NCBI GenBank assembly: GCA_903813345.2
Contig: CAIIXF020000004.1
Location: 9,124,196-9,188,195, forward strand
Reading direction: 5' to 3'
Origin: Owenia fusiformis
Lineage: Eukaryota > Annelida > Polychaeta > Sabellida > Oweniidae
Length of the DNA stretch: 64,000 nt
Program-made: the position numbers and the translations under genes
Shown here: in pieces, positions 895 to 42,349 of the stretch
Layout of the letters: each line of letters opens with the position of its first letter
Numbering within the stretch: the first letter of the stretch is position 1
Notes under the pieces: generated by a model
The model's database searches: none
Told to the model about the DNA's origin: nothing
The model's input: only the letters and a program-made list of their open reading frames with translations

Positions 895-1006
895 CTAATC
901 GTTGTATAAATCATACATAAACTCACCTTTGGGGTTCTTCAATTTCTTTTTTCTTTCTTCATCTGGCTCTTTTGGTAAAGGTTTCATATCTACCGGATTA
1001 GCGTCT
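895..1006 (-). CDS. Exon 2 (terminal) of the 68-residue candidate gene
   Basis: The reading frame continues from the acceptor CAG to the TAG at 897-895 and gives 37 codons, starting DANPVDMKPLPK. The first 30 or so bases of this exon, with the acceptor, recur in every unit of the neighbouring array, but only this copy carries the rest of the exon and a stop codon. Confidence 0.55.
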
Positions 1007-13300: not shown

Positions 13301-13876
13301 GTGTAACATTTTTTACCACAAAAAGTCGTTAAATAAATTATTGAGAATAATTCAAAGTGAAGTTTGTAACCTTTGGTCATAAGTCAATCCGAAACTACTC
13401 TGACATTCCTTGTTGTACAATTAAAATCAATTTCGCATTTACCAGAATTGAAACTCACTTTCCAGAATTTTACAATAAAAGGAAGTGGGTGGGTCAAGGT
13501 GACAATTAAAAATCATTCATGAAAGTAGTCTATCGCATAGCGGGACTGTTATTTATTCCATGTCTCAAAAGTACTGTTCCAATGTAGTAGGCTTAACAAA
13601 ATGATCAATTGCTACATGTAAAGAAATTAATTGTTGATGATTTGAAATTTATTTTTTGAAAATTTGTCACAAAGGTTTTTGCTCGTTTCGCTTTTATAGG
13701 AAATTAGCACGAGGATATAAATAAAAGTTACACGACTTTTCTCATAACTCAACTAGTCCCCTTGAGAGTGGAGTGTCAACATATTGAGGTGTTATTTAAA
13801 TAAAAGAGAAATTAGCGATCACTGGTAAACACTCATAATTTACGTATCAGTTACATTTAAAATAAATCAGCCAAAA
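4387..13876. other. Intergenic, no supportable gene
   Basis: Both strands show only short open frames without splice-compatible partners. Contents: a possible tRNA-like promoter box near 6.43 kb, a degenerate 24-bp-scale repeat of TGTTATTCATGA at about 8.65-8.76 kb, A- and T-rich tracts, and a short inverted pair (GGGCAAAGGGGTGTA at about 11.89 kb against TACACCCCTTCGCCC at about 12.02 kb). The last bases are the presumed promoter and 5' UTR of the coiled-coil gene; I see no convincing TATA box. Confidence 0.5.
6424..6435 (-). promoter_or_regulatory. Possible pol III B-box (SINE remnant)
   Basis: The minus strand reads GGTTCAAACCC, matching the tRNA/SINE B-box consensus. No intact tRNA cloverleaf is seen around it, so a decayed SINE head is the most I can suggest. 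Confidence 0.3.
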
Positions 13877-14447
13877 ATGTCTAATATTAAGAAACTTTTT
13901 ACGGGGAAGCTAAACAAAGTTTCCCAAAAGGGTAAAACGAAAAATTCTCAAAATAAGCGACGTCCTTCTGGGTTCATTAATGATGGTGAAAACATTGATG
14001 TCTTTTTTGAAACAGTATCGGAGGATGCCAAACGTAAACAACGTCGAAGGGGAACGATAGATTGTACACCAATCCACACCAATGTAGGAGTCACACCAAT
14101 CCACACCAATGTAGGAGTCACACCAATCGACATCAATGATGAAGTCGATGGCGTTTGTGATATTAACACCAATGAGCACATCAATAACGCTGACAAAACA
14201 GCAGAAAATGCAATGCATAATCAAACTGATACCACCAACAAATCAAATCAAACTATTCATGAAACTGATCATATAACGAGTAATGGAAAGCAACACGCGA
14301 ATGATTTGGAAAATGAATTTGCAGTTGCAGATGGGGACGAAATCACGGGTGTTAATAATGTCACAAAGGAGAAAATACAAAAGAAGCCGTTACAGAGAGA
14401 AATCAACTTAAGTCTTTCATCAGCGAGCAGCAGCACGTCATGTAGTG
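13877..14447 (+). CDS. Coiled-coil gene exon 1
   Basis: ATG in an AAAAATG context opens 190 codons plus one base before GTAACG. It contains an in-frame 27-bp tandem duplication. The open frame running past the donor to 14524 is intron read-through. Confidence 0.75.
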
Positions 14448-17400
14448 GTAACGTAATTAATTTTTATGTTATGATTTCTATTTACAAATTCAAAATTATA
14501 TTAAAATCATGGAATTCTCGTTAAAACTTGAGCATTAAAATATGAAATCTAAATACGTTACCATCCTGTTTTTGGTGTTTGCTTAGTTGTATCTTTTGTT
14601 TTAATATACAGGGTCAGACTATGAAATCAACAATGAGGATTGGAGAGGATCCGTCACGTGTGAAGATAACGCTACTAGTGGACCCGGTGGTGGTGTTTCG
14701 CGACACATGTATGACACAATTAACATGAGGAACGATGATAACATTGGGGTATTGCATTTTAGTATATATATTTTTTTTTAAATAGTCTTTATTCAGCTTT
14801 TGGTCATTTTACATAACATAAACAATGACATAAAATAGATAATTCATACAATTTTCATTTTAATAGTTTTGATACAAATCCACTCTGAACAATAAAATTC
14901 CACTTTGAACAATAAAATACATTTTAGTATATCAATTAACTATTGGGGTATTTCTTTAAAGTGTTTTATGACATTATCGAGACAAAGTGTAATATTGAGA
15001 TATTTCTTGAAAGTATCTGATGAAAATATTGAACTATTGCTTGAAAGTATCTAGTGGCATTTTAGACGTTATTAAGAAGGTACGTATCATATACGAAACT
15101 TGACTTTTGCCTGAAAGTGTGCTCCAGATGGCGTTTTCGGGCATTGCTTGGAACTCCGGGCTGGAACTATTGATATCGTGATCGAAAGTGTCTTATAATA
15201 TTTCAAGGCATTGTTTCAAAGTATCTCATGGAACTGTTCAAGTACTCCTTGCAAATATGTTGTGTTATTTTTGAGACATTGCTTCAAAGGTATCTACTGA
15301 AAGTTTTGCTTGAAAGTATATTGTGATACTAATGAAGTAATGCTTGAAAGTGTCTTATGGTACTGTCAAGAATTTTAGACATTGCTTGAAAGTATTTCAT
15401 AACACTGGTGAGAAATGGCTCCAACGTACATATGTATCTCGTGTAACCTTATCCGAATAGCCACGTGTACCTGTCACTATCTACTTTTTTTCTTTTCTAT
15501 TTGCTTCATGTTGTAAATTTCGAATGATCACCCAAAATGTTAGATATACATTTTACCATGAAATGCAATATGATATGCTCTACATGTGATGAATCACGTC
15601 TTTAATCGAATACACGTGTAATAATCATAATCTACTTAACATTTTTTAATCATTAAACAATACCTCATTTAAGGCCTCGAGGGCAAATCATCTGATCTCC
15701 AGGGGGGGGGGGGGTCATACCGTATATTCAAAGAAGAAACCTTTATGTTGGGTTTGGAGGGAGGAAAAGACACATGCCATATAGGATTCGCATTTTTGAA
15801 TTAAAATCTTTGATAGAAGAGAAAAACTATTTTGGGACTAATGATTGATCTGAAGAAAATTGAAATAATCAGATCGAATATAAGAAACCAATGTCGCCAA
15901 AATCAAATGGTCCGCACATATTGAGCCTGAGCACTTTACATACTTGACACTTGAGGAGAATCACTCTCATCGGTTTACATGAAATCATCATGACTTTTTC
16001 ACACCCAACTCTTAAAAATCTTCCTGTAACGTAACGTCATGTATATTTCAATTGTACCTTCTTTGTACGCCTCCAAACCACCTGTGCTTCATGTCACATG
16101 AGTTTCATATGAAATGCTCATATTTAACATCATATAATATGAGATAAGAGTTTACAACAAGGGGAAGATATATCAAGACATATACTTGCTATTTGTGAAT
16201 CATTTCAGTGAAAGATAATCAGCCTTTGTAAAATGCTCGGTTCAGCATTTCCCTTAATAGAAATTCGAACTTTTGTCTTTGGAGAAATGTATTTTATGAC
16301 ACCCAAATTCACTCATAATTCTCAAAGGCGCGATAGAAACAATGAGAAAACATGTTTATGAAAAGATGGCAGTAAACTCAACATGTAAGTACACTAGTAC
16401 AGTACTGTAAAACCTATCCAAGTGAAACACATGTGGCACCTCGAAAAAGTATATTCCACTTGAGACGTGTTTCACTTAAGAGGCACATTTAACATTATGT
16501 CAGTTGGTCTTGGGGCTCTGAAAAGTGTTCCACTTACAGAGGTGTTCCCCTTCTAGAGGTGTTTCACTTTAGAGGTTTCACTGTATGTAGGCCATATCTG
16601 TAAAATATGAACTGCACGGCTGCCATCTTTATATATGTCTAAAACCTAATTCTGATGTTCTCTTCTCCTCTATGTTATCTTGTTGTTCTGGCAAAAATCA
16701 TTTCATTTACAATTATACAGTATTAACAATATAATATGATTTATTTGTACTGATGCCCTGTTAGGGCCAAACGTACAACCAAAATTAAAGAAATAAAGTA
16801 CAGCAAAAACAACAAGGCGATTATATGCAATGAATTTGAGTAAAATAATCCGATTAGCAGTCAAACCCTACTTGTTGCTATTATAGCCACTCTCCATATT
16901 CATCTTCTGAAGTGTATTATGCATAGGCTTAGGTCGATAGAAATAATTTTCAAATAAATAAATAGAAAAATATAATACTGGATTCTGTTGGTGCTGCCAT
17001 CTTTATATCGGCCCAAAATCTATACTATTATGACATCCATTTAACAGGACAAGGATGAACTGATACGGACGTTGAGGAAACAGCTGAGCATAACAGAGAT
17101 CAAGCTGCAGGAGGCGACAAAGAGTGAGGTGCTGGCCAACCAACGGAAGATCAGCCTTATGTATCAAGTTGAGGAGAGGGACGAGATTAAACGAACCTAC
17201 CAGCGAGATGTGGTGAGTGATGTTGGTCACTGGCATCGGAAATATCTAAACACAACCTTGTGTCCTTGTTGCTACGCACATAAAAAAAGTCAATCAAATA
17301 TTTACCATGTGGTCCTTTTAACTCTCAAAGGACCGGATTGTTTTCATACCAAGTTTTTCACTTTCAGTGCATCAATTTTGTGGATTACATGTTATATTAT

Positions 17401-19207: not shown

Positions 19208-19724
19208 AGGCAGTTTTTTTTCTAGAATTTCTAACAACGGGCTAAATAAATGAAAACAACAGCAAAATCAATGGAAATCATTTTAACATGGAAATGTTGA
19301 AAAGTCCCTAAAAACAATAGGCGACTGTGAAAACCAGTGAAAATCACCTGTTGCCTGCTGCTAATGAAACCACTGAAAAGCATTAAACATTTTAACACTT
19401 CTTGTACAATGTTATGCCATATCTTATACACTTTTGAAGTATTAGTAAAATCATAAGTTTACTGACTTTGACTATTCAAATGAATCTTAGATACATGTAC
19501 ATGTAGTTGTCTTTCATGCACACAATAGTTTGCTAGGAATTATTTTAAAATCAAACGTTCAGCACTGTTGGCCCCACTATAGGAAAATGTACCCAGTTCG
19601 ATCAAGCAGGGCCTGTATAAGAAACTAAAATATATATTTATTTTTTTGTAAATAATTTCAGTTTTGACTTATTGGACTATATAATGTACTCAGCATGCCA
19701 AAAATGTAATCAGATCTTCAACAC

Positions 19725-19881
19725 TAGTCTGCTCTTCCATCTGTAAAACGTTCATTTGGAATGGATGAGCAGTTTTACAAGAATTTTGATGACAATGTTT
19801 ATATGACATCACGTCTGCCCATCCACCCAGCAGCACAAGACAATGCCAATACACTTTGGAACCTTCAACTTGAATGTACCT
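19725..19881 (+). CDS. Possible 3' coding exon of the coiled-coil gene
   Basis: After AACACTAG there are about 52 open codons (SALPSVKRSFGMDEQFYKNF...) to a TAG. The start is phase-compatible with a donor at TTT/GTGTAAAG in exon 6. Composition looks protein-like, but the acceptor lacks a good pyrimidine tract. It could also be 3' UTR or a remnant. Confidence 0.3.
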
Positions 19882-19963
19882 AGAATCTCAGTTGGTACGG
19901 GATACATGTGTTTGGAATTGGGAGGTTTTTGGATAGAGTGTTTGCCCTGAGGGAAATATGAGT

Positions 19964-20859: not shown

Positions 20860-21036
20860 GTAGAACCTGCTAAGTGAAACACAGTCAGTGGAACATCTCA
20901 CATGTGGAACAGTGTTTTTAAAGTCCCACGGCCTATTTACACCATGTCAATGAACCTCTGGAAGTGGAATACCTCCCAAGTGGAACACTTTTTAGAGGTC
21001 CAAATGGTGTTCCACTTACACAGGTTCTACTGTATT
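20860..21036. mobile_element. Small inverted-repeat element, GTTCCACTT family, copy 3
   Basis: Bounded by ACAGTAGAACCTGC and CAGGTTCTACTGT, TA-flanked on the right, with internal AAGTGGAACAC and GTTCCACTT repeats. Confidence 0.65.
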
Positions 21037-22454: not shown

Positions 22455-22820
22455 TAAACTCTGATAAATATATGTGGTAAGTTTATTCCTCCTTGGTAAT
22501 ATCATGGGCTTTCAAGAGTTGAAAGCCCATGGTAATATCATACATGTAGCTCTGCGAATCCTGGGAAATTATAACTTCGTATTCGGAGCACATTCCTCTA
22601 GTGCAAGGAAATCTCATTTGACGTCTTATTTGATCGTCACACTGGTTTTTGAGAACTCTGATAAATATGTGTGGTAAGTTTATTCCTCCTTGGTAATATC
22701 ATACATGTAGCTCTCTGAGAATCCTGGCAAATCAACTACGTATTCGGAGCACATTCCTATTGCAAGGAAATCTCATTTGACTTCTTATTTGATCGTCACA
22801 CTGGTTTTTGAGATATACCA
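22455..22820. repeat. Tandem duplication of the exon 15 end plus 3' UTR, two copies
   Basis: Two copies (about 22.46-22.66 and 22.66-22.82 kb) share TATTCGGAGCACATTCCT, AGGAAATCTCATTTGACnTC, GATCGTCACACTGGTTTTTGAG and TTTATTCCTCCTTGGTAATA. On the minus strand the shared part includes the last codons (SQKPV), the TGA and 3' UTR. Confidence 0.9.
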
Positions 22821-23033
22821 TGAACATGTTCCGTTTCAGATTCCTGGTCTGAAAAGTCAACGAGAATAAATTCATCTTCCTCGGCATCCACCCAATTCTC
22901 TACCTGGTGTGTCCTGGATTTTATGTGGTGAGTCATGGCATGATCTGGCCGATCGGAATGTAAGTCAGTGTTGGCGTTGAAGCTGGCAGTGACTGGGCTG
23001 GGGCTTGTATGACCAGCACGTTGCCTCTTTGGC
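22796..23033 (-). CDS. TMCO3: TMCO3 exon 15 (terminal)
   Basis: Acceptor CTTTCAG, 79 codons, TGA at 798-796 of this kilobase. Encodes the cytosolic tail, beginning [14 protein letters not shown] and including an acidic [16 protein letters not shown] cluster. Its 3' end and stop codon are duplicated downstream at 22.46-22.66 kb. Confidence 0.9.
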
Positions 23034-26000: not shown

Positions 26001-29000
26001 TGCCAGAACATACTTCTCTAGAAATGAGTCCAAGCTGCCTTGCTCTGGAGCCAAGTACAAACGAGAACTCACTGACTTGTGCCAAACCGGCAGCTACTAT
26101 CCACTTGTAGTGTTTAGCTGACTTTGGAAGTAGGAGACCCAACACAAACACACTTGTGAAGAACTGAAAAAAATGAGATTATTTCACTTAAATGCAAAAT
26201 TCAATTGGGTTCTAGTGTGCATATCTACAGCTACAATCCACTTGTAGTGTTTAGCTGACTTTGGAAGTAGAAGACCCAACACAAACACACTTGTGAAGAA
26301 CTGAAAAATGAGAATATTTCACTTAAAGGAACAGTATTAAACAGTGGACTGGTGTGCATATCTACAGCTACTATCCACTTGTAGTGTTTAGCTGACTTTG
26401 GAAGTAGGAGACCCAACACAAACACACTTGTGAAGAACTGGAAAATGAGAATATTTCACTTAAATGCAAAATTCAATTGGGTTCTAGTGTGCATATCTAC
26501 AGCTATAATACATTTGAAGAGCTTGACTGAATTAGAAAATTAGACAAGCAACACATATATACATCTGTGAAGATCTGTAAAATACATATAAGTACACTGT
26601 ATAATATAATTATACAAGAACACAAATGTATACAAAATGTCCCCACCAATGGGTGATCCCATCAAATGGTTATCCTGAAAATGAGTAGACAAGACTTTAC
26701 TGACACAATTTGAGGACGAAAAGTCAAAAATGGCCGCCTTAAAATTTACCCAGAATCCCCCAAAATTAGCTAGTTCTAGATTTTCATACTAAGAACCACC
26801 CCTGAAAATTTGAAATTGATCCGTCAAACAGTTAAACAAGACTTTACAGACAAGATTTTAGGATGGAAAATCCAAAATGGCTGCCTTGACATTTACCCAG
26901 AATGTCAAAAAACTAATCAGTTCTAGATTTTCATACTAAGAATCATCCCTGAAAAGTTGAAATTGATCTACCAAACGGTTCACCTGAAAACGCGTAGACA
27001 AGACTTTACAGACAAGATTTTAGGACAGAAAATCCAAAATGGCTGCCTTGACATTTACCCAGAATGCCAAAAAACTAATCAGATCTAGGTTTTCATACTA
27101 AGAATCATCCCTGAAAATTTGAAATTGATCTACCAAACGGTTCACCTGGAAATGCGTAGACAAGACTTTACAGACAAGATTTTAGGACAGAAAATCAAAA
27201 ATGGCTGCCTTGACATTTACCCAGAATGCCAAAAAACTAATCAGATCTAAATTTTCATACTAAGATTCATCCCTGAAAATTTGAAATTGATCTACCAAAC
27301 GGTTCACCTGAAAACGTGTAGACAAGACTTTACAGACAAGATTTTAGGACGGAAAAAACCAAAATGGCCGACAATAAAAAAGTGATTACGAGTTTTTGCT
27401 GATTTCCTTTTACAAAATTATCACATATAACTACTGTTAACAATAACATAGGCTTTTTCAACAAAGTACACCTGAAATTATTTATAAAGCTACTAAATAG
27501 TTAAAGTATGAAAACTCAAAAACACCATTCAATATGATACAAAGTATTATCGCACGCTAACTTTTCTTCAGACATTCAAAATGGCTGACATGACTAGGCT
27601 AACAGGTCCAAAACCTAATCAGATGTAGAATGAAGTGAGCTGAACAAGATGTTAAAGTTTTAAAAGCAACTGTGAAGCCGTTTTTCTTAAAGTTTGCAGA
27701 CAAGGATTTTAGCATTTGACCTCAAAATGGCCGACAGGAAGTAGCTATCGAGTTAATTTTTTGTCATCCACATCTGTATGCACTCACAAGTTATTCCTGA
27801 AAATTTGAAGGTGATACCTGTAGCGGTTTTGGAGAAAACTGCCGGACGTACGGACGGACAGACAGACAACCAGACGGACAGACAGACAGACGGACGGATG
27901 AATGGACGGACACTATGTGGTGGGGACATAAAAAGCATAATGTAATAGGGTATTTGTATTGGCTTTACATGCATCTGCAATTGCTATCCAAATATAGGTG
28001 GGGGAGGGGGTGGCCGAGTAAGACAGGGAGTTTATAAGTGTCATTTGACAATTCATAATTTCAATTTATAGGCCAGTCAACTTGGTGTTGGGTGTAAAAT
28101 AGTATTCAAGGTATCAAATTTTGAACTAAGTGCAGCTGCAATGAATTGAGTAAATTATGCAATAGGGTTCACTTAATTAATTCCTCATTCCATTGAGTGT
28201 ATTAACATCTTTGCAAGTGTGCTTCAGAGTGTCAATTCCCAAATAGATTGGTTCTACCCCACTGCCTTTCTGCTAAAGAGATCAATACCTTAAAGCCAAC
28301 AACTGCCATTGTGAGTGTGGTCAAGATTGTCACTTCATATGCCAGGAATGATGGAAACACATGGAGACCTGAAATACATGTATATAGTAAATAAACAAGT
28401 AGTGCCCAATTTAATCTAATGCACTATTTTCAGGTAAATAAAAACAGTATTCCAACACACACAATCACAACATACTACAATTGTTCAGTAGTGGCAAATT
28501 AAGAATTTCTGGGGAAAAAATATGATGTCACGAACAGAATTTGAGTTATGGATTTTATATGGTAATGAGTTTCGATCCCATCATTAAATGAAATGGCAGT
28601 TTAAACTTACCGATTGAAGCAAAGAAAATTGAACCGAGGAAGTTTTTGATTGGTTGTATAAGTGAATCAATATGCTCTGCTAAATGGTGCCCTTGTGCAC
28701 TGACTAGAATCCCAGCAATAAAACACCCCAGCTCCATGGATATATGTAGGAAGTTGGTTATCTGAAATTGAAGAAAACACATTAGTTTAAGTCTACCCTG
28801 ACTACCAACACTACCTCCTTCACCTCGAGGGGCTCTGCTGGGGAGTTCTTCAATCATTGTCAATATAGTAAGATTCTTGCTTTATTTAAGAGATCTTTAC
28901 CACATTCTCTCCAATAGCTGTCACTTTTGTTGCAAATAAGGCATTTTTGGCAAGAAAAATTCCCATACATGATATTCCTTGGGATTTTTGACTTCTCTCA

Positions 29001-32000
29001 TATATGGGTGCTCTTTGTAATGGGTTACAATGGAAATTTCAATTTTAAAAGCGCCCTGAGCCTTTTTACGGCGAATACAGTATTTCAAAAATGTGACAAT
29101 CACATGATGCTAATAGCGATGAATTGCATAAAACGATCACATGATGCCAATGACAACTAAGTTCTATGATGCCAATGGCAACTAAGTTCTATGATGCCAA
29201 TGGCCACTATGTGTAAGGAACAATCGTATGATATGACAATGAAGAACAAATGCATTAAAGAATCATAATGTCTAATACTTCATGATTGTATGTGTTTTAG
29301 TCATTCAAGTTCCTAATAATGTTGTTTTCATACTCACAGTAAGCATTAAGAAGGCTATAGATATAGTAGCCAGCATGGTCAATTCATTACTGTCTTTCTT
29401 CACCAGGTATCTGTAGAATGGGCCAACAGCATACTGAGCTAGCAACCAGGCCAACATAACTGTCACACAGAGAGCTGAAATATAAACAAACATAGCTATA
29501 AACCAGGTCAATATCACTTTCGTTCTTCACCAGGTATCTGTAGAACGGGCCAATAGCATACTGGGGTAGCATCCAGGTGATGTATGGGGGAGGCGGACAA
29601 AACACTATATATGTTCACATTGGATTGTGATTTTGGATAATTTGGGGTTTCACTTCCTTATGGCTGGTGTCTCTTGGATGTTTTTTCTCTTGCCATGTTC
29701 TATAACCATATTTGGTGTTTTTCTGTTTGCACTGTACTACATATTTAGCAAAAAGCCATTTAAAGGCCCACTATACTTAATTCAGAATAAAAAAAAATTC
29801 GCATAGAAAAAGAGAGATCATTAGACATGCATGCACATGTTAAATAAAGTAAATTATTTTTAATAACTGTTGATTTAAAAGATGGCGACACTTGTGTAAA
29901 AATGAATGTATCGTGTAATACAAACAACTTTGCCATTTTTCAATGTCATTGATAAAAACTTGATATATAAAGCTTGACAGAAAATATTTTTGGATAATTT
30001 ATTTTAATCTTTGATGTAGTCCGTTTGAGCTGTTGTTGTTGGTGTCAAATGAAAGATCAGGTTCTGAAATTCAAATTTAAGTATTTATTTTGCCCAAAAA
30101 GGTTAAAAATATGCAAAGTGGGCCTTTAAGTATAAAATAAATACTGTTCACTCGACAGTTCTATAAGTCAAACTTACCCCCTCCCAACTGTGCAAAAAGA
30201 ATCATAAACTGCAGAAGTGGTCCCTCTGAGGAAGTTCCATGTTGGGCTAGAGTGGGGAGTAAGGCTATTAAAAGGCCCAGCAGGACATCTTGCATGATCA
30301 GGATGCCCAGTAATACAGTGCCATAATCTGTGCCTGAAGGTAGATATAAAAGAAACATTTAGGCACTGAAGTAAGATGACATGGAAAATTAGAAGGCTGC
30401 ATGGTGTAACAATGTTTGAATAGATGAGGTGTTTTTTAAACTGATGCATTTAATGTCAAACAAATGTAGATCGCAGCAATGGAGGTCAGTAATAAGCTCC
30501 TATATGGAAAATGTGGCCGAGAATGATGAAGAACTAGCTTCAAAGTAATGTTTTTTTTGTGGTGTAGTTAGTTTTGATATGCTACTAAAGTTTGGGCAAA
30601 GGGTGATAATAGTGCATCACTCCTACGTATTACCTTGAATTAATGTTATACTTCGCAAAAATGTAACACGTCTGAACAACCCCCTACTTGTTGTCATTAA
30701 AGCACATATTCCCCAAAATCTGGTGAACTTCATAAAGTGTTGCAATTAAAAATCTGCATGATCATTAGTTGTGTTTCTAAATAGAATATGTTAAATTAAG
30801 AGCTATCACTCCCTTTCTTCACTGCTTTTCTCATCTAGTTTCAACCTAAAGGTTTACCTTGTTCAGTTTAATGAGCTCTTATATTATAGGTGGATTTATT
30901 TGGTGTTTGGTACAGCTTATAAATTGTTTTCCAATTTTGTTTTCTTTTTGGGTTGCATCAAAATTAGTGATAAATATAAATTAATCAGATTCAAAAAAAA
31001 AAAAAATTCTTACTTCAAAAATAAATGAATTAAAGCTGAAAATATATTGTTTATGTTAAATTTCGCAAATAATCTTCCTTTTATTTGGTCAAATTCAAAT
31101 ATATTTCCCTTCCTTGACCCTTTACCAAAATGAATTTGTCTCAATTTTGAAGGTGCTAGATTCTAGCACTACAAACCTAATTTTAAATGACTGCTTCCAT
31201 ACAAATACCTGCATCCTCATACTATTGAACCCATGAAATTCACGCTAGAATCTAGCACTACAAACCTACAAATACCCGCATCCTCGTACTATCGAACCCA
31301 ATAAATTCTACCCTTTGCATTCGTTTGACTTCACTTCTTAAAAGAGAGCTTCGTCTTCACTCTTTCAAACTAAAATAAACCTGTGAACTCACCGCGCCAA
31401 TCAGTGTTCGTCGGCCAAATTTGACCGACGTTCTATATATGGTCATTCCTTCTGACGTCATCATTGAGCCCGGAATTGACCAATGACATGCGCTTATTTA
31501 ATTAGAACGCATTTTGCGTATGTTACTTCAAGCTCGCTCGCTGGTTGGAGAAAGGTCAGCGCATAGGTCAGAAGTGATTTATTACCCAAACTGTCACCAG
31601 TACCCGTCGTGGGGGCGGGGCTACTAAACTGTAATATGGTCTCTACTGGGCAGAGTGTAGTTTAACTAGACTCTGCACGCAGGGTAAAGAAATTCACTTT
31701 CTTTAAGAAAAGAATAGGGTCATGGGCGTAGTGCTATATTTCTAAGTAATACACCATCGCAGGAACAGTAATTGAGAGAAGAAAAAGGAGCGTTTAGGGG
31801 GGTCTGGGGGGTTCCCCACAGGAATATTTTGAAATTAGGTTTTATTTAGAGCGAATTTGCAACCCTCTGGTACGCCTGTGCGTACCAAGCATATCGGGCG
31901 CTACGCCTATGAGGGTTACACACATTTTATTATCTATTAACTAAAAATGCAGCTTTTAAATTTTGTTATTTCAAACATTTGCCCCTTGCTAAAGTCAAAA

Positions 32001-35000
32001 CAGAAATGTTTGTGAGTACTTTGAATTTAAAAAATAAGCAATCAAATGTATAATGTGCAGCAAAGCTGTGGCCTTTTGTAATTTAGGGAGTTTCAGCCAT
32101 GTTAATTTTTCCGAAAATAACATGGCAGAGAAGTATCAAAATACCAGAACAACGGCAACGCCAAAGCGTAGCGAATCCCATCGAACAGAAATGGCTGGCA
32201 TTTTTACAAACGAAGCGCAAATATCATAAAACAACACACCAGAAAGGCCACCATTTTCAAAATGGTTGCTTGGAAGAAATAATATGCTTTTAAGTAGCCA
32301 CCACTAAAATTTTTGAAAAATCGCACACGTACTTGTAAAATAACACACATAAAAATGATGGTCATTTTTCAAAATGGCCGACTACTCCCCAAAGTTTTAT
32401 TAGACAATGTGCCATGCTTAAAGTATTCACATATCAAATATGAACAAAATCGCTCCACTACTTTTCGAGTTATAGTAAAATACGTTAAAATGGCGGCCAT
32501 TTTTCAAAATGGCCACCTTCTACCAAAAGTGTCTTAAGACAGTGTGCAATGCTTATAGTATTCACACACCAAATATGAACAAAATCGCTCCACTATTTTT
32601 CGAGTTACAGCAAAAATCGTAAAATGACGAGTAAAGGCCGCCATTTTTCAAGATGGCTGCCATGTGCTTTTTTAATATTTACATTTGTAGCATTATTAAT
32701 GTCCTTTATAATCTTTTTACATTTAAAACATATTGCTATTACAGTTTTACATATTGCACCTAAATTACTGTAAAATCGTCACTAAAATGGCCACCATTTT
32801 GAAATGAGCGGCCATTTTGAAAATCGGCTTTCGAGCAGAACTTCTACCCCCATAGGGTATATGTGTACAAAATATTAACAAAATCGGGCCAACGGTATTT
32901 GAGTTATTGCCCGGACGGACGTACGGACGTACGTACGGACGGACGGAGGCGTTCCCTATATCCCTCCTAACTTCGTTCGATGGGATAATAAGAGGACACA
33001 GATATGATAGCTAACCTAGAAAACAAACTAAAATATACAAAAGTTAGGATAAATATAAATTAATCAGATTTAAAAAACAAATAATTATAACTTGAAGAAA
33101 TTAATTAATTAAAGCTGAAAAATGTATTGTATATGTTAAATTTTACAAGTTAACTTCCTTTAATTCAGTCAAATTCATATATATTTCCCTTCTTGACAAA
33201 GCTTCTTTCGTAAAATCATTGACTCAATTTTGAAGGTGCTTTAATCTAGCACTATAAACTTAGTATGTAAACGTAGATACATAAAACATTAGCATCTTAC
33301 CACTTATGAACCCAAAAATTCATGACATCACAAATATGAAAAGAACTACACACTAATTATTGACTCATTCAATAGTTGAACAATAAACACAAATAAATCA
33401 AATAGTAGTACAATTTGGCAACCGTTTTAATATGACAGTTTTGCCGATCGAAAAATATTGCATCAAAGGAATTCTGGGCGATAGGGAATAACAAAATATT
33501 GCTTGTAGGCGAGATCAGACAACTTTGACATTCAAGCAGATATCGGACAAATTCATAAAAATATTGTTTTGAACAATGAGACCAGTGATTATAAATTCTG
33601 GAGTGTGCTCTCTGAGGTCCACATGGAAAGATTTCAATTATTTCAAATTTTGACATGGATTTGATTTTAAATGCTTCTAAATGAGCTTCAAACACTTACT
33701 ATGATTTCTTTTTGTAACATTTTGACTTCCTCAATTCATAAAAAGAACATCATCACTTTTTACTAGTCTTGAACTACTACAATATACCAATTATTTTGGA
33801 GATGTAATTAAGGCACTAAATGTAAACATTTCTTCACCATCAGTCATACCTAGCAGGTTAACAGTTGCAATATTATAGTTGTAACAACTAACGTGTGTAA
33901 TGTGTAAATTGTATTTAGTTATTTTTCTCCTAATAATATGAATCAAATTAGACAGCCATCTGCTCACACAGACACAAGCACACTTGCACAACCCACCACA
34001 TCCACAAGACAACTACAAAAAAATAAGATTTTAGAATTGCGAATTCCTGCAAAGCAGCCATTTTGAATTTTCTGAGGTACAAATCTGAAAAATAATACCA
34101 TAATTGTGATCTACTCCAAAATTCCTTCAATTTGAGTATAATATAGCCATACTTTGAAGGGATCGAAAAATTATTGCGATCGAAATCGTACATAAGACGG
34201 CCATTTTGAATTTTACGAGGCTCGAATCAGAAAAAAAGATACATATTTGTAATCTACTCTTAATTGCCTTTCATTTGAGTATAATAAAGCTATACTTCAG
34301 AAAGATCTAAAAATTAGCGAAAGAAAGAAAGACCTAAAAATCTGTTTTCCTGTCCCCCCATACATGGCACCTGGGGGTCAGGATGAAAAACACGGAATAT
34401 ATGTGAAATAGATAAATGTTGTGAATACACTTCCAAAATTTCAAACAATAATATTCATTACTTTGGTTTAGAATGAAAAATTTATGATTTTTGCAAAAAA
34501 GTCCCGTCATTTTTAAAGCGGCGGCCATCTTAAAAAAAAAATTTTGCGTAAAACTATTTACCAATATACATCTTTCAACAAAATATGAAGAAAAACTGTC
34601 AACTAGTATTTGAGTTATCTTCCGGACAGACGGACTGACTGACTGACTGACTGACTGACGGACAGACGGATGGACGGAGGGCTTCACTATAACCCTAACG
34701 AACTTCGTTCGTTGGGATAATAAGCCACACGGTGAACAGAATCGCACCCTTGAACAGAATACACTTTTCGGTAAAAGATATACTAATGTATTACAAAATA
34801 TGTGAAAATTGGAAAGATTGACCGTTTAGTTATTTCTAAAAAAATGTTTTAATTTAACATTGTTCTCAATGGGAAATTCTTTTTTATTTTTTGAAACAAG
34901 CCTTCACAGACATGATTTTAGGACAAAAAATCCAAAATGTCTGCCTTAACATTTACCAAGAATGCCGAAAAACTAATCAGTTCTAAATTTTTATAGGTAG

Positions 35001-38000
35001 AAACATCCCTGAGAATTTCAAATGAATCCCTCAAACAGTTTGGCTGGAAACCTGTAGACAAGCCTTGACAGACAAGATTTTAGGATGGAAAATTCAAAAT
35101 GGCAACCTTAACATTTTCCCAGACTGCCTAAAAACTAATCAGTTCTAAACTTTCATAGGTAGAAACATCCCTGAGAATTTCAAATGAATCCCTCAAACGG
35201 TTTAGCTGGAAACCTGTAGACAAACCTTGACAGACAAGATTTTAGAACGGAAAATCCAAAATGGCGGCCTTAACATTTACCCAGAATGCCGAAAAACTAA
35301 TCAGTTCTAAACTTTCATAGGTAGAAACATCCCTGAGAATTTCAAATGAATCCCTCAAACGGTTTAGCTGGAAACCTGTAGACAAGCCTTGACAGACAAG
35401 ATTTTTTGGATGGAAAATCCAAAATGGCCGCCTTAACATTTACCCGGAATGCCGAAAAACTAATCAGTTCTAAAATTTCATAGGTAGAAACATCCCTGAG
35501 AATTTCAAATGAATCCCTCAAATGGTTTGGCTGGAAACCTGTAGACAAGCCTTGACAGACAAGATTTTAGGACGGGAAATCCAAAATGGCCACCTTAACA
35601 TTTACCCAGAATGCCGAAAAACTAATCAGTTCTAAACTTTCATTAGTAGAAACATCTTTGAGAATTTCAAATGAATCCCTCAAACGGTTTAGCTGGAAAC
35701 CTGTAGACAAGCCTTGACAGACAAGATTTTAGAACGGAAAATCCAAAATGGCGGCCTTAACATTTACCCAGAATGCCGAAAAACTAATCAGTTCTAAACT
35801 TTCATGATTAAAAACATCCCTGAGAATTTCAAATGAATCCCCTAAACGGTTTGGCTGGAAACCTGTAGACAAGCCTTGACAGACAAGATTTTAGGACGGA
35901 AAATCCAAAAATGGCCACCTTAACATTTACCCAGAATGCCTAGAAACTAATCAGTTCTAAACTTTCATAGGTAGAAACATCCCTGAAAATTTTAAATGAG
36001 TCCCTCAAACGGTTTGGCTGGAAACCTGTAGACAAGCCTTGACAGACAAGATTTTAGGACAAAAAAATCCAAAATGGCCGCCTTAACATTTACCCAGAAT
36101 GCCGAAAAACGAATCAGTTCTAAACTTTCATAGGTAGAAACATCCCTGAGAATTTCAAATGAATCCATCAAACGGTTTGGCTGGAAACCTGTAGACAAGA
36201 TTATTCGGGACGCCTGCCCGCCCAACCGCCCGCCCACCCACCCGCCCGCCTGGCAAACTGATTACAATATAGCACCTGAGGGTGCGATAAAAACGTTTCC
36301 AAAATGCAAACATGGCATTAATATGCAAAATGTCATCACCTGCCATTTGTTACACGCAACAAATGTCAAATGCCAAACGGGAACCATTATCAATATGCAC
36401 TTCTGGTGGTGACATAAAAAACTTCTTACCTTGTGACATTTCTCTCTCTTTGTTTGAAGACAGAAATCTAACGACAAGGGGTGTACTTGATAGTGATAAA
36501 CAAGCAGCAATGAACGCACTTTCACTGTGTGATGCATACACTATGTTACCAAGCAACACACCAAACGCAACCATAATTCCCATTATGGAAGCACTGCCCA
36601 GTGTAGCAACTTTTAGCACCTGAAACCAACGTTTTTTTAATTTATTTAATCCACTTCGTATTAGTATAGTTCATATAATAGTAAAGTTCATTGTATTACA
36701 TCAAATTCAATGATTGATTAATTGTTGAAAGTTTATTTAAAGGAACATTCACGCGGTCCTAACTTCGACCGTTAATTTAAAAAAACGGTGCAGTATGAGA
36801 CTCGTAATCCTTGATTTTCAAACATCCGGTAGGTCAAAAATTCAAATTAACTGTCGAAGTTAGGACCGTGTGATATTGTATAAGATAGATTCTAACTTGA
36901 AAAGTGATGTCACTGTTCTATTTTCTTACCTTCTTCAACTGATCAGGTGAAAACTCTAATCCAACTGAGAAGAGGATGAAAAACACACCAAACTCTCCCA
37001 ATGTCTCTAACTGCACCAATGACTGAAATATAGAAACATGTATGCACAGTAAAACTTGTCTAAGTGGAACGCCTTAGTGGTACCTCTTAAAAGTGTTCGA
37101 CTTGTGAGGTGTTCATTTAACATTTAGTTATTTGGTATTGGAACTCTGAAAAAGTGTTCCATTGACAGACGTGTTTGATTTCTGGAGGTGTCCAACTTCA
37201 CTAGTTTTATTGTATTATTAAAAGGGATTCTATCGGCACAAGTTTTTTTTTCATTGAGAATTGAAATAAAAGGATAATTACAATACAAAATGTCTACACC
37301 TGGCAACACCTGGTATTATTGAGTGAAAACATCTTATCCTTAGTGGCTTAATTAATCATTGCAATTTAAATACAAGGATATCCAAAAAGTAGGTTTCCAG
37401 TTATTCAACAATCTCTTTCTGTAAAATGTAAACATACTTTTGGGTCACCCTGTATAATTTCCAGTTATTCAAGAATCTCTTTTTGTAAACTGTAAACATA
37501 CTTTTGGGTCACCCTGTATAATTTCCAGTTATTCAGCAATCTCTTTCTGTAAACTTTTTTTTTTTAAACAATAGGTTTATTTCATTGATATATTTTTCCT
37601 GTAAACTGTAAACGTACTTTTGGGTCACCCTGTATAATTTCCAGTTATTCAACAATCTCTTTTTGTAAACTGTAAACATACTTTTGGGTTACCCTGTATA
37701 ATTTCCAGTTATTCAACAATCTCTTTCTGTAAACTGTAAACATACTTTTGGGTCACCCTGTATAATTTCCAGTTATTCAACAATCTCTTTCTGTAAACTG
37801 TAAACATACTTTTGGGTCACCCTGTATAATTTCCAGTTATTCAACAATCTCTTTTTTTGTAAACTGTAAACATACTTTTGACTCACCCTGTATAATTTCA
37901 TACCTTTAATGTGTTAAACCCTGATGGTCCCAATATTATTCCACTGAGGACATATCCAAACATTGTTGGGAAATGGAGCGCTGTACATAGCCAGCCAAAT

Positions 38001-41000
38001 AGGAAGGATAGCAGCATTAAATAAATCACATCCTGAAAAGACAAGGAGGTTATTTACTGTTAGGGATTGGATTTGAGTTTATTCAGAGGGAGTACTGCTA
38101 CATGTTTTTAGGAGAACTTGTACTTGATATTGTATAGTTGTGGTCCTTAAGAGATTGGTTCTCCACTTTTAATTGTCCAAACAAGAAGAATGGCAGAACT
38201 AAATAAATCACATCCTTAAAAGACAAAGAGGTCATACATATACTGCTAAATGTTTTTAGGAGAACTTGTACATATTGTAGAATTATAGATTAGTTCTCCA
38301 CTTTTAATTGTCTGATCAAGTATAAAGCTCCAGTATAAGGCAAATACTGTAGTTGTTATAAGGTCTCAGATGAAACCAATTGAGACTTTAAGGCAACAGT
38401 TATCCCTGGTTGTTATAGTATTACATGTTCACATCCAAGTTTTCATAACAAATGAAGCTTAACATCCCTAATGTTTTGTACATGTTGTATTAACCATGTT
38501 CAGGAATAGTAAAATTTCTAATGTTAATGATTTCAAATGACTGCTACTTTAGCTGTAGCTATGCCCCGGTATGTTATTTTTTGTTCCCAAAAATCTGAGG
38601 CAAAAGTACTTCTGAGTACTTAGCTCTGTTGTGTATTGGTATTATTCTATTCTTATTATTCATCACAATATTTAAGGATTTAGGCCCTGGGTGCAGCATT
38701 GAGTGTTAATTTTTGGAAACAATGCCTGAAAGGAATGGTTATTCTACAATGCATCGAGTCTTGAGTCTTGGGCTTAAATTCTTTTCATACATTGCAAAAT
38801 GTTTTTCTACCATCACTTAAAAGATATGAAATTACTAATCAAAGAACATATTTTCAATGAAAATTTTTGCAAGGGTCAAGCTATAGAGTGTTAATTTTTG
38901 GAATCAATGCTTGAAAGGAATGGTTATTCTACAATGCATCAAGTCTTGAGTCTTGGGCTTAAATTCTTTTCATACATTGCAAAATGTTTTTCTACCATCA
39001 CTTAAAAGATATGAAATTACTAATCAAAGAACATATTTTCAATGAAAATTTCTGCAAGGGTCAAGCTGTCAAAGCATCAAATTTCAATATGTAGAGTCAA
39101 GTTGTCAACCTTGACAAGCACTCAAGAAATGACCTTGGATGCAGTGATTGTTTATATACTGCACAGCAGTTAAATAAAATACTGTGTTTGGATTGGCTGG
39201 AATCAGACACACCCTGCCTAGCTACTGTGTGAATAATATGATAACCTGAACAGGGTTTTCACCAGGAAATTTTTAGACCCTGGATTTTTAGCGATATTGT
39301 GAATACTTGCGAATACTTCTCCCCATGTGAGATCAGAGATAATAATCATTCACCTGTATTAAATGATGGTCCTCATGAGGTACTGTAGAGTCCTTTCCCT
39401 TTGATAGGACAAACTGATTGTCTCTGGAATCTACCAGCTTCATCACTTCCATGCCTTGATCATCGCTCTTATTGGCCTGTTCATTCGCTTGGTCTGTATC
39501 ACGGTCATGTAGCCGTATCACTGCTTCAATGTTGTTTCCTTGCGCCTGAAATATAGTGCAGCAGAGGTCAAGGTCTTAAATCACAAGGTTGCAGCTTTGC
39601 ATACATTTTTGTAACCATTTACTGTAACGTATCAGTAAATGGTTAAAAAAGTGTAACAACTGGTTACAAATGCCAACCAATGAGTTAAGCCATCACAAAA
39701 AATGCTGAAAATTAGAATGACACTGATAATATGTTTAATAACGACTTCTCGGTAGTGACATAACAAGAAAATCCAGTGAAAATGACACTAGAAAAATATG
39801 AAGGCCATAATGTTATTTTGACAGAACTGATTCACGTCCACTTTTTATGAAAATACTACTGAGTGAAAGACAATGAACAAACTACATGTAGTGAATGCTC
39901 AAACTTCGGTCCATAGAACGAATGGCTCTGCCCACTTCGTGGGGGCCCTTCGTAAAAATACCTTATTAGCTTGTTCTTTTACTGCATTGTCAAATATATG
40001 ATCATCCAGGTCATGTTCAAGCTGATCTGCTGCCTTTGCCACTTGGTTAAGTATATCATCTATAACTCCCTCTATCTTAGTGCTTGAGTTTAGATGCTTC
40101 AGTCGCTCCTAATTTAAACATTGGTGTATATACACATATAAAATAGGTAATTATCACTATTAAATAGGTAACAACAATATGTGAGTATGTTGGTGTTTTT
40201 TAAAATTAGATATCTAGTGAGTTTTCATAGTTTCCGAGCCAGTCAACTGAAAATATTAGTAGGAAGCCATTTCAGCTCAAAATTCAAATTCAATGGTATA
40301 GTACAGATATCATATGCTAATCATATCATTCACAATGCCAATCATATGATAGATACACAATGCCAATCATATGTCAAATAGTGCTTGTCAAATAATGCAT
40401 GATGCCAAGCATATGATCCATGATGCCAATCATATGAGATACTCTACCTGAATGTCAGCCTTCTGCTTCTCTGCATTAAGTAAAGCATTGTATTCTTGTT
40501 CTTCTTTCAAAGTGGCATCTCTAAGAGCCTCAAGTCTCTGCTTGCTTGACTGAAATGTTTAAAATGGTTCGTTTACTTAAGTTTAAAACTCTGCCCCCCC
40601 CCCCCTCCCCTCGTATACTTCTTTCAAGTAGTATCTCTAAGAGCCTCAAGTCTCTGCTTGCTTGACTGAAATGTTTAAAATGGTAAATAAATGTTTACTA
40701 AAATTTAAAGCTCTGCGCCCCCTCCCCCCCTTCTCCCCTCATATACTTCTTTCAAAGTAGTATCTCTAAGAGCCTCAAGTCTCTGCTTGCTTGACTGAAA
40801 TGTTTAAAATGGTTTGTTTACTAAAATTTAAAACTCTGCCCACCCCTCCCCTCGTATACTTCTTTCAAGTAGTATCTCTAAGAGTCTCAAGTCTCTGCTT
40901 GCTTGACTGAAATGTTTAAAATGGTTTGTTTACTAAGATTTAAAGCTCTGCGCCCCCTCCCCCCTTCTCCCCTCATATACTTCTTTCAAAGTAGTATCTC

Positions 41001-42349
41001 TAAGAGTCTCAAGTCTCTGCTTGCTTGAATGAAATGTTTAAAATGGTTTGTTTACTAAAATTTAAAGCTCTGCCCCCCCCCCTTCTCCCCTCATATACTT
41101 CTTTCAAAGTAGTATCTCTAAGAGTCTCAAGTCTCTGCTTGCTTGACTGAAATGTTTAAAATGGTTTGTTTACTAAAATTTAAAGCTCTGCCCCCCCCCC
41201 CCTTCTCCCCTCATATACTTCTTTCAAGTAGTATCTCTAAGAGTCTCAAGTCTCTGCTTGCTTGACTGAAATGTTTAAAATGGTTTGTTTACTAAAATTT
41301 TAATGCTCTGCCCCCCCCCCCTCTCCCCTCGTATACTTCTTCCAAAGTAGCATCTCTAAAGAGTCTTGAGTCTCTGCTTACTCGACTGAAATGTTTAAAA
41401 TGGTTTGTTGTAGTAAACTGAAACGGTACCTACAATTTCAATTTTGGTATAGTTTGTCCCCTCTCCCCTTATACATGTATATACATTTTGTATTTATCAA
41501 AATTTTAAAATTGATAGATTTGTTTTTACCCCTCTCTTCCTAACAAAATTAAGATTGTTCTTCCAAAACTTTGACAAAATCGACTCCATTCTTAACTGAA
41601 ACACCACTTTTCAGATCATATAAGATCATCACTGACCTGTTTAATATTTAGAAAATCCCTGTAGTTCCCTTTCAAAGCATTATCAAGCCAGTCCATGGAG
41701 GTGAATATTAGAACCTCACTTTCGTTAAGTTCCTTCATAAACGTGTTGAAGACATCAGCCTGGTAATGGCGTTCATCTATAGGAATGTTTTTATTGGCCG
41801 ATGTTCTTTTCACATACTCGACCAATCTTTCTATTGCAAATTTTTTGCGTCGAAGTAAGGTGCCCAATCTGAAAAATAAATCTATGTTTTCACAAAAGTT
41901 AACACTGATTTATTGTATATTTCTAAAACGGATCAATAATGAAAATCATTTTAGAGAAATATTTATGTTTATTAATTACTTTACACTTTAGACTCCGGAA
42001 AAGCTATTAGACTCTGGAGCAAGAGGGTCTAAAGAGAATCTCCAGAGTCTAAAAGTGAGAACCTTGACAATACTTACTTTTGGAATGAATTCTTTTTCCA
42101 CTCATAATGTGTCTGAACTGGCTTTGGCACTGGAGGTTTCACTGGGGCTGGTTCAGCTTGTCTCTTCTGAATGTTCAATTGGTGAACTTTCACTATATGG
42201 TGACCAATATCCGCTTGAACTGTCTCAGTCCCCGACCAGATCACAACAATCCCTATGTAGATGACAGACCCAATACTCATGCAGGTCAAAATCCTGGATG
42301 ACATTTTGAGGAATCCTACATCGACTAAATTTCTGCTTTTACGACGCAT
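22796..42349 (-). CDS. TMCO3: TMCO3-like transmembrane and coiled-coil cation/proton antiporter, 15 exons
   Basis: The translation of about 786 residues has the TMCO3 plan: an N-terminal hydrophobic segment (about residues 14-35), a hydrophilic region with coiled coils (about 91-315), then a CPA2/KefB-type Na+/H+ exchanger domain of about 12 membrane helices (about 316-705) and a hydrophilic acidic tail. Conserved features seen: [50 protein letters not shown] (with the membrane-buried Asp), [23 protein letters not shown] and [20 protein letters not shown], each matching the family as I know it. The vertebrate protein is near 680 residues, so the N-terminal half is somewhat longer here. Expected role: monovalent cation/proton exchange in a membrane; substrate and location are not shown by sequence. 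All exon phases fit. Several introns contain tandem copies of exon edges. Confidence 0.95.
24733..24824 (-). CDS. TMCO3: TMCO3 exon 14
   Basis: Encodes the last membrane helix, [20 protein letters not shown], and a short basic segment; ends in phase 2 (AG) before GTACAA. Confidence 0.9.
25165..26013 (-). repeat. Seven extra tandem copies of the exon 13 donor half
   Basis: The exon word GAAATGAGTCCTAGCTGCCTT (plus strand, allowing variants) recurs at about 25186, 25312, 25433, 25546, 25662, 25783, 25904 and finally 26020 in the real exon; spacing about 115-126 bp. On the minus strand each unit encodes part of [19 protein letters not shown] followed by an intact GTATGT donor. Confidence 0.93.
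26014..26163 (-). CDS. TMCO3: TMCO3 exon 13
   Basis: Acceptor CAG, 50 codons, donor GTATGT. Encodes a helix ([13 protein letters not shown]), HYKWIV and the conserved [20 protein letters not shown]. It is the only place where the acceptor half and the donor half of this exon occur together; extra half-copies flank it on both sides. Confidence 0.92.
26230..26580 (-). repeat. Extra tandem copies of the exon 13 acceptor half
   Basis: Units of about 136 bp at 26241-26303 and 26377-26439, and a decayed one at about 26511-26578, repeat the exon 13 start on the minus strand (CAG acceptor, TTCTTCACAAGTGTGTTTGT through KWIV) and then diverge into GTAGATATGCACAC instead of the rest of the exon. Confidence 0.9.
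26690..27375. repeat. 162-bp tandem satellite, about five units (intron 12)
   Basis: Unit landmarks: AAAATGGCTGCC, CATTTACCCAGAATGCC, AAAAACTAATCAG, ATCCCTGAAAATTTGAAATT, GACAAGACTTTACAGACAAG. The same unit forms the array at 34.88-36.20 kb in another intron of the same gene. Confidence 0.92.
27376..27930 (+). mobile_element. Dispersed repeat ending in a GGAC microsatellite
   Basis: Two further AAAATGGC(T/C)GACA motifs lead to TTTTGGAGAAAACTGCCGGA, a (GGAC/AGAC)n tract at 27842-27910 and TATGTGGTGGGGACATAA. Similar ends occur at about 32.91-32.99, 34.62-34.72 and 36.2 kb, suggesting one retroposed or amplified family. Confidence 0.6.
28289..28368 (-). CDS. TMCO3: TMCO3 exon 12
   Basis: GT completes the Gly codon of exon 11; encodes [15 protein letters not shown] and [11 protein letters not shown]; donor GTATTG. 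Confidence 0.92.
28611..28761 (-). CDS. TMCO3: TMCO3 exon 11
   Basis: Encodes [20 protein letters not shown] and SIEP-like [20 protein letters not shown]; donor GTAAGT; ends in phase 1. Contains the Glu of SMELGCF conserved in the family. Confidence 0.93.
29338..29474 (-). CDS. TMCO3: TMCO3 exon 10
   Basis: Encodes a helix ([20 protein letters not shown]) and the next ([13 protein letters not shown]); donor GTGAGT. Confidence 0.93.
29500..29582 (-). pseudogene. Partial tandem copy of TMCO3 exon 10
   Basis: About 127 bp from the real exon, a copy of its middle encodes [17 protein letters not shown] with silent and conservative differences from the exon ([17 protein letters not shown]). It has no matching acceptor and lacks the exon's 3' half, so it should not be used. 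Confidence 0.85.
30178..30333 (-). CDS. TMCO3: TMCO3 exon 9
   Basis: Encodes [20 protein letters not shown] with the conserved QD, and [17 protein letters not shown], then a helix; donor GTAAGT, phase 1 end. Confidence 0.93.
31314..31685 (+). mobile_element. Dispersed repeat, second copy (plus orientation)
   Basis: Matches 3726-4100 inverted, from ATTCGTTTGACTTCACTTCT to the GCACGCAGGGTA end. Differences are scattered substitutions and short indels, consistent with an old mobile family. Confidence 0.75.
32000..33000 (+). mobile_element. AATGGC-rich dispersed repeat with GGAC tail
   Basis: Successive motifs such as TTTTTCAAAATGGC and AACAAAATCGCTCCACTA repeat at roughly 120-bp spacing, ending in GAGTTATTGCCCGGACGGAC, a GTAC/GGAC tract, and TAACTTCGTTCGATGGGATA. 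No intact ORF. Confidence 0.6.
34020..34735 (+). mobile_element. AATGGC-rich dispersed repeat with GGAC/CTGA tail
   Basis: Same architecture as 32.0-33.0 kb: CAGCCATTTTGAATTTTCTGA and CGGCCATTTTGAATTTTACGA units about 130 bp apart, then GAGTTATCTTCCGGACAGAC, a short microsatellite and GAACTTCGTTCGTTGGGATA. Confidence 0.6.
34880..36260. repeat. 162-bp tandem satellite, about eight units (intron 8)
   Basis: AAAATGGC(C/G)GCC or close variants recur at about 34934, 35097, 35259, 35421, 35583, 35745, 35908 and 36071. The unit matches the intron 12 array at 26.69-27.37 kb. The array ends in CCCGCCC-rich sequence at about 36.21-36.25 kb. Confidence 0.93.
36280..36425. repeat. Dispersed repeat abutting the exon 8 donor
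   Basis: GCAAAATGTCATCACCTGCC, ATTTGTTAC and TGGTGGTGACATAAAAA match 42.93-43.06 kb (AAAATGTCACCACCTGCTAT, TTTGTTGGTGACATAAAAAC). The repeat ends within a few bases of the exon 8 splice donor. Confidence 0.7.
36430..36619 (-). CDS. TMCO3: TMCO3 exon 8
   Basis: Encodes [20 protein letters not shown], a helix, and [20 protein letters not shown]; donor GTAAGA, phase 1 end. The open frame on the opposite strand at 36312-36623 is its shadow. Confidence 0.93.
36930..37022 (-). CDS. TMCO3: TMCO3 exon 7
   Basis: Encodes [20 protein letters not shown] and [10 protein letters not shown], phase 0 at both ends; acceptor TTTCAG, donor GTAAGA. Confidence 0.93.
37044..37218. mobile_element. Small inverted-repeat element, GTTCCACTT family, copy 5
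   Basis: ACAGTAAAACTTGTCTAAGTGG to TTCACTAGTTTTATTGTATT, with internal AAAGTGTTCCA words; diverged. Lies within 25 bases of exon 7's acceptor. Confidence 0.55.
37375..37895. repeat. 61-bp-scale minisatellite in intron 6
   Basis: About eight units of TTTCCAGTTATTCAACAATC, TCTTTCTGTAAACTGTAAAC, ATACTTTTGGGTCACCCTGT. It abuts the exon 6 donor but does not include exon sequence. One unit is split by a T-rich insertion near 37.56 kb. Confidence 0.92.
37904..38032 (-). CDS. TMCO3: TMCO3 exon 6
   Basis: 43 codons, first helices of the antiporter domain: [36 protein letters not shown]. Acceptor TTTTCAG, donor GTATGA. Confidence 0.93.
38033..38300 (-). repeat. Partial tandem copy of the exon 6 acceptor region and upstream intron
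   Basis: About 182 bp upstream of the real acceptor, the minus strand repeats AAGGATGTGATTTATTTAGT then departs; the neighbouring intron word GTTTTTAGGAGAACTTGTAC is also duplicated (38.10 and 38.25 kb). The copy's acceptor has become AAG. Confidence 0.8.
38701..39067. repeat. 185-bp direct tandem duplication in intron 5
   Basis: Two near-identical copies, 38701-38885 and 38886-39067, from GAGTGTTAATTTTTGGAA to GCAAGGGTCAAGCT. No exon sequence included. Confidence 0.93.
39354..39545 (-). CDS. TMCO3: TMCO3 exon 5
   Basis: 64 codons, hydrophilic linker between coiled coil and antiporter domain: [20 protein letters not shown], ending EDHHLIQ; donor GTGAAT. Confidence 0.85.
39962..40108 (-). 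CDS. TMCO3: TMCO3 exon 4
   Basis: 49 codons of predicted helix: [36 protein letters not shown]; acceptor AATTAG, donor GTATTT. Confidence 0.88.
40448..40549 (-). CDS. TMCO3: TMCO3 exon 3
   Basis: 34 codons of coiled coil: [34 protein letters not shown]. The 5' half with the acceptor is the unit of the array at 40.6-41.4 kb. Confidence 0.9.
40590..41405 (-). repeat. Seven extra tandem copies of the exon 3 acceptor half
   Basis: Units of about 115-128 bp. On the minus strand each contains CATTTCAG, TCAAGCAAGCAGAGACTTGA (or a one-base variant), then CTCTTAGAGATACTACTTTG and a diverged continuation running into a G-rich tract. One copy (about 41.02 kb) reads CATTCAAGC and has lost the CAG; the most distal (about 41.37 kb) is the most diverged. 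Confidence 0.93.
41637..41868 (-). CDS. TMCO3: TMCO3 exon 2
   Basis: One base completes Lys, then [20 protein letters not shown] ... [19 protein letters not shown]; helical and charged. Donor GTCAGT. Confidence 0.9.
42078..42349 (-). CDS. TMCO3: TMCO3 exon 1
   Basis: ATG at 42349 with an in-frame TAA six bases upstream. Basic start ([11 protein letters not shown]) and a hydrophobic segment ([19 protein letters not shown]) that could be a signal peptide or anchor, then a Pro-rich linker ([14 protein letters not shown]). Donor GTAAGT, phase 2 end. Confidence 0.9.

Follow-up and report, generated by a model that had tools for sequence, protein, structure and literature searches.

Why do tandem arrays come to lie across the edges of exons, and what becomes of the splice sites that are copied with them? 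The question is raised by a stretch of 64,000 nucleotides of Owenia fusiformis DNA (positions 9124196-9188195 of contig 4 in a 498-Mb genome of 525 contigs; hereafter the window), in which a preliminary description listed duplications at exon edges in two minus-strand genes, one resembling TMCO3 and the other encoding 68 residues. That observation is real and is wider than was reported: arrays with an exon edge in the unit recur among sampled genes of the same genome, and most of their unused splice sites keep the AG or GT. The arrays belong to a known kind, the minisatellites called mirages in amphioxus, here in a non-lancelet genome and with an excess at exon edges. The best reading, to which we give a probability of about three in four, is that short tandem duplications arise at random and are filtered by selection, together with a two- to threefold excess at edges that is unexplained.

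Exon edges copied in the window

The TMCO3-like gene (22796-42304, minus strand) has 15 coding exons which, spliced in silico, give a single frame of 771 codons, and every intron is GT-AG. Residues 307-682 of the 771-amino acid protein match the Na+/H+-exchanger domain PF00999 (Pfam, E 1.2e-54). The name TMCO3 was supplied by the preliminary description and is presumably apt, in agreement with the human protein of that name. All of the exon-edge copies listed there are present in the sequence, as found with Tandem Repeats Finder, by self-comparison, and by reading; the list was counted as six duplications, but holds seven. The exons and copies described in this section are all on the minus strand, and the exons of the TMCO3-like gene were placed by splicing.

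Exon 3 (40448-40549) carries an acceptor array of about 118 bp in 7.7 copies (40494-41417; Tandem Repeats Finder and self-comparison), with AG kept in six of seven unused copies. Exon 13 (26014-26163) has arrays at both edges, each found with Tandem Repeats Finder: an acceptor array of 137 bp in 3-3.6 copies (26091-26583), where both scored copies keep AG, and a donor array of 123 bp in 7.4 copies (25180-26067), where GT is kept in 7/7 scored copies and the copies outscore the real donor (median 9.3 against 5.4 with a simple weight matrix). Self-comparison and reading revealed three further duplications. One, old and tandem, lies across the acceptor of exon 6 (37904-38032) and has a single copy at offset 182 with the AG kept (37995-38325). 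Another, also old, is at exon 10 (29338-29474); it occupies 29377-29577 at offset 129, and the copied acceptor is not recognisable. This copy had been described as internal to the exon and is indeed present, but the offset suggests that it is probably an old acceptor duplication whose unit once spanned the acceptor, since decayed past recognition. The third (22457-22829, offset 161) copies the stop codon and 3' untranslated region of exon 15 and is without a splice site.

The second gene is best called putative, because its last exon (895-1006; acceptor 1006/1007, stop codon 897-895), recognised from an open frame and an acceptor, has no match in a Pfam search and no convincing candidate was found when its first exon was looked for. 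The acceptor array claimed for it is present all the same: a 74-bp unit in about 20 copies (974-2842; Tandem Repeats Finder and self-comparison), consisting of the end of the intron and the first 33 or so nucleotides of the exon, ends in the acceptor of this exon, and AG is kept in all 18 scored unused copies. The repeat unit thus spans an exon/intron boundary at exons 3, 6, and 13 and at the putative small gene. The earlier statement that most copies keep their splice dinucleotides is borne out: at the five places in the window where a copied splice site can be recognised (four acceptor, one donor), 34/35 unused copies do so.

Edge arrays in the genome sample

A comparison of edge overlap with a shuffled expectation was run on 72 regions of five conserved gene families (278,162 bases, 220 exon matches). 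For the first sample (46 regions, 169,839 bases), CCT, MCM, and adaptin were picked without regard to repeats, and each of their exon matches was taken with 1 kb on either side; the second (cullin and myosin, 26 regions) was added once the first result was seen. All matches were used for CCT (60), MCM (28), adaptin (38), and cullin (39), and 55 of 92 for myosin; the myosin matches left out were 18 on a gene with a repeated-exon cluster (C9:37.977-37.994 Mb) and 19 of the 74 others, in single-match regions. Exchanger exon matches were kept out of the sample. Exon edges are here the ends of profile matches, which are near but not always on the true splice sites, and the null was built on the same ends: each unit was placed randomly within its own region, with exon interiors excluded, in 20000 draws. 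On the cluster-bearing contig, twelve matches that follow one another on a single strand (C9:37986009-37994334) all fall on one segment of the myosin head, roughly profile positions 18-84, and probably represent alternative exons in a gene for muscle myosin.

In the whole sample 15/36 arrays contain an exon edge, against 6.1 expected, a count reached in eight of the 20000 draws. The excess stems mainly from the first sample, in which 12/25 arrays contain an edge against 4.5 expected (three of 20000 draws). With periods of at least 60 it is weaker (11/25 against 5.2; 110/20000 draws), and the observed count exceeds the expected one at every threshold setting tried on the whole sample. When matches longer than 400 bases and two loci on contig C222 are removed, 14/35 arrays contain an edge against 5.3 expected. 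No array lies within an exon match in the 72 regions, where 3.4 would be expected. Eight of the edge arrays are at acceptors and seven at donors, and together they touch 16/220 exon matches; L031 is counted as a single array although it touches a pair of matches, and one of the pair extends across an intron. Touched edges are commoner in the CCT regions, with 8 for 60 exon matches, than in the myosin regions, with 1 for 55. Off-edge arrays have similar frequencies in the first sample (13 in 158 kb) and the second (8 in 106 kb). The exon matches have 41% G+C, compared with 35% overall in the sampled loci. When the lengths of the introns beside edge arrays were compared, 9 of 16 rows ran into a region end, and the arrays themselves add to intron length.

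Unit lengths in the sample run from 48 to 186 bp. In the stretches that were read, each unit has a splice site, or what remains of one, flanked by some exon sequence and, across the site, by some intron sequence. Examples are acceptor arrays of nine copies in a CCT-family gene (L035) and about four in a myosin-family gene (L069), and donor arrays of about twenty copies in another CCT-family gene (L032) and of thirteen (L045) and seven and a half (L037) in adaptin-family genes. Tandem exon duplication with mutually exclusive exons copies whole exons, both splice sites included. Such exons and the present arrays both repeat exon sequence beside its own exon, but here a single edge is copied: no whole-exon duplication was seen in the stretches read of the 15 sampled edge arrays.

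In total, 125 unused copies from 15 sampled arrays and from 5 arrays or copies of the window were scored with approximate splice-site weights; they were picked by an ungapped similarity of at least 60% to the real site, with the dinucleotide excluded. The dinucleotide is kept in 115/125 of these recognisable copies, as AG in 59/62 acceptor copies and as GT in 56/63 donor copies, and 93/125 either exceed the real site in score or fall at most 1 bit below it. A position-by-position comparison indicated that the dinucleotide is conserved about as well as the neighbouring positions; therefore, neither purging nor special upkeep is visible. Use of the nearest decoy would produce a frameshift or a stop in 18/19 arrays, the exception being L031, where it would add an open in-frame stretch. 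The distance to the nearest copy is divisible by three in just 3/19 arrays, so that preservation of the reading frame was rejected as a sign of function. Given these consequences for the message, the unused copies are probably ignored by splicing.

Apparently locus-specific units and other repeats of the window

Genome searches found the exon 3 unit and the small-gene unit solely at their own loci, and no second haplotype copy of either was seen in the assembly. The search with the exon 13 units was filled by a flanking dispersed repeat, and only 40 of 1354 candidates were scored, hence it does not show these units to be unique. This repeat occupies 26576-26700 and adjoins the acceptor array of exon 13 on its upstream side; all but one of the 40 scored matches were elsewhere in the genome, and those 39 covered only this stretch. 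When the fetched loci and the window were compared with one another, 0/15 edge arrays matched another locus or the window, compared with 3/21 other arrays. On this comparison the edge units look locus-specific, and an origin of edge arrays from dispersed satellites or from transposon-borne arrays is not supported. Contig C222 was considered as an allele of a sampled CCT gene and was ruled out, since it matches none of the fetched loci. A search of the assembly for COX1 gave no match.

The preliminary description had set the edge copies against ordinary minisatellites lying outside exons. That contrast rested on two arrays; the TMCO3-like gene has six that miss exon edges. Tandem Repeats Finder reports 162-bp arrays in intron 12 (26836-27368) and intron 8 (34896-36199), away from exon edges, whose units are similar to each other. 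As the window is matched by a 161-bp array at L033:2585-3077 too, these arrays likely belong to a dispersed minisatellite family. A 64-bp array in intron 6 (37394-37899; Tandem Repeats Finder) starts 5 nt beyond the last base of exon 6; this exon consequently has the old acceptor copy at one end and an array close to its donor at the other. Intron 5 holds a 185-bp tandem pair with abrupt breakpoints and no exon edge (38701-39067; Tandem Repeats Finder and reading). Elsewhere in the window is a palindrome (57242-62076) whose 682-nt arms (57242-57923 and 61395-62076) are 96% complementary, with more inverted pairs between them. A 27-bp repeat of 2.7 copies (14066-14138) lies inside a 231-codon plus-strand open frame (13829-14521), and would be a nine-residue in-frame repeat if the frame is coding.

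Origin and persistence of the arrays

It is probable that the edge arrays are mirage minisatellites, that is, short tandem duplications that by chance took in one exon edge with the unit and were later amplified in the intron. A unit of about 50-190 bp would be duplicated in tandem, perhaps by the fill-in of staggered nicks, at breakpoints that are abrupt and had no long repeat beforehand. Unequal exchange would then expand and homogenise the array, as the identity among copies suggests. Abrupt ends without a long direct repeat at the breakpoints were found in the four two-copy duplications that were read (L016, L008, and 38701-39067 and 43666-44072 of the window), which is expected of local duplication rather than of exchange between older repeats. 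Selection would act as the filter: arrays within exons would be lost, while those in introns or over one exon edge would persist. Edge arrays may persist as the spliceosome keeps to the copy adjoining the intact exon body, and the remaining copies would be decoys with working-looking signals that are ignored, as the broken message predicted from nearest-decoy use in 18/19 arrays suggests. Tolerance of half-exons, one of the explanations offered in the preliminary description, is supported by the lack of arrays inside the sampled exon matches, by the kept dinucleotides, and by the rarity of spacings divisible by three.

Several observations weigh against this reading. That the decoys are ignored by splicing is deduced from the effects on frame and stop. 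In a survey of alternative splice sites, long introns favour the sites closest across the exon and short introns those closest across the intron, and competition between acceptors of similar strength tends to favour the upstream site, significantly less so in long introns (PMC9225289); acceptor decoys lie upstream and on this rule should compete. The acceptor arrays are accordingly a real puzzle and a test of site choice. The 60% similarity threshold under-counts decayed copies, and copies that share an array are not independent; GT is kept in 0/4 scored copies of L023, and at L048, which is counted among the edge arrays, no copy reached the threshold, so that it contributes nothing to the 125. 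In the second sample alone, 3/11 arrays contain an edge against 1.6 expected, which is not significant (3796/20000 draws). In the TMCO3-like gene, 3/9 arrays lie over an exon edge against 2.25 expected (P 0.40, random unit placement); this test used arrays with a period of at least 40, and the copies at exons 6, 10, and 15 are outside that list. The window alone therefore cannot carry a claim of edge excess.

The last two counts are what pure chance would give, in a genome so rich in tandem duplications that some units land on exon edges with zero excess. Chance is enough for the TMCO3-like gene, as the preliminary description had allowed, but not for the first sample or for the sample as a whole, and it is unlikely as the full account. 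The two- to threefold excess suggests either a bias of breakpoints towards exons or a bias in retention; mutational bias had also been put forward earlier, and some bias towards the edges is what the excess suggests, whatever its cause. A related rival is edge-directed duplication, in which the edges of germ-line-transcribed exons would be hot spots, for example through transcription-linked nicks at the step in base composition between exon and intron. The higher G+C of exon matches and the commoner touched edges in CCT than in myosin are consistent with such a process; however, the CCT/myosin contrast is post hoc and involves few edges, expression in the germ line is assumed, donors and acceptors are struck alike, hence no single splice signal is targeted, and off-edge arrays are about equally frequent in both samples. 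Edge-directed duplication is thus possible, though on the doubtful side.

The two other explanations concern what the copies are. If they were functional, with several splice sites regulating or strengthening splicing or supplying alternative protein segments, the kept dinucleotides and the open in-frame insertion offered by the L031 decoy would be accounted for; yet upkeep of the dinucleotide is about equal to that of neighbouring bases, and the frameshifts and stops that nearest-decoy use would bring in the other arrays make function very improbable. Inflation or invention of the arrays by the assembler is the least credible explanation and can be nearly set aside. Copies are near-identical in some arrays (99% matches in L037), and copy number there is unsafe, but copies are diverged in many others (81% matches in the small gene, 90% at exon 3, 83-90% at exon 13), units differ between loci, and as many as 15 sampled arrays show the pattern.

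The arrays have the anatomy described in amphioxus, a precedent absent from the preliminary description. There, mirages are tandem repeats over exon boundaries in the genes for Adh, troponin C, the globins BflGb6 and BflGb9, and PGBD5 (PMC3087553, PMC3902484); the copies often have AG or GT, splicing was, in favour of the present reading, judged undisturbed by the authors, length varies between haplotypes, and the cause is unclear. The present arrays likewise span an exon/intron boundary on the acceptor or the donor side, and many but not all copies keep the dinucleotide. Unit lengths of 10-160 bp in amphioxus overlap those of 48-186 bp in the present sample, and copies of the BflGb6 mirage, which are 81-100% identical, resemble those found here. 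The host, however, is no cephalochordate, the group of both mirage reports though no part of what defines a mirage: its 498-Mb genome probably has 12 chromosomes compared with 19 in B. floridae, and G+C is 35% in the sampled loci compared with 41.3% in B. belcheri (PMC12373286). A further difference is that the present arrays have a frequency among sampled exon matches and a test against random placement. No report of mirages outside amphioxus was found among the open-licence literature matches listed, which is weak evidence of absence as these were mostly titles and the starts of abstracts.

Other systems share single features with the arrays. Primate-specific human paralogs contain variable internal tandem repeats that change gene structure (PMC2812944); these too are minisatellites, some of them at an exon-intron boundary, but their units average about 30 bp, half are in coding sequence, and the authors stress elongation of exons and new introns, not intact decoys in series next to an exon that stays as it was. 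Where introns are gained by tandem duplication within a gene (PMC2891723, PMC4974935), the start is the same, a short tandem duplication, but the duplicate turns into a new intron; here an existing boundary is straddled and no new intron was seen. The minisatellites studied in relation to splicing in Caenorhabditis elegans lie inside introns, not over exon edges (PMC4039745).

Mirages, known from a few lancelet genes, are now placed in a non-lancelet genome and given a first frequency, 16/220 sampled exon matches. Members of the CCT, MCM, and adaptin families are among the genes that carry them, and there the choice of a decoy would usually destroy the message. Their serial, near-identical splice sites, differing mainly in position, offer a clean natural experiment on how the spliceosome chooses a site, and proximity across the exon, proximity across the intron, and exon enhancers are candidate rules that can be tested on them. 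More tentatively, short tandem duplication may strike exon edges by preference in some animal lineages, and several percent of all exons would then stand among up to about 20 equally strong and reliably ignored decoys. If so, decoy arrays would be a recurrent genome-wide feature of animals beyond lancelets, and a source of intron change.

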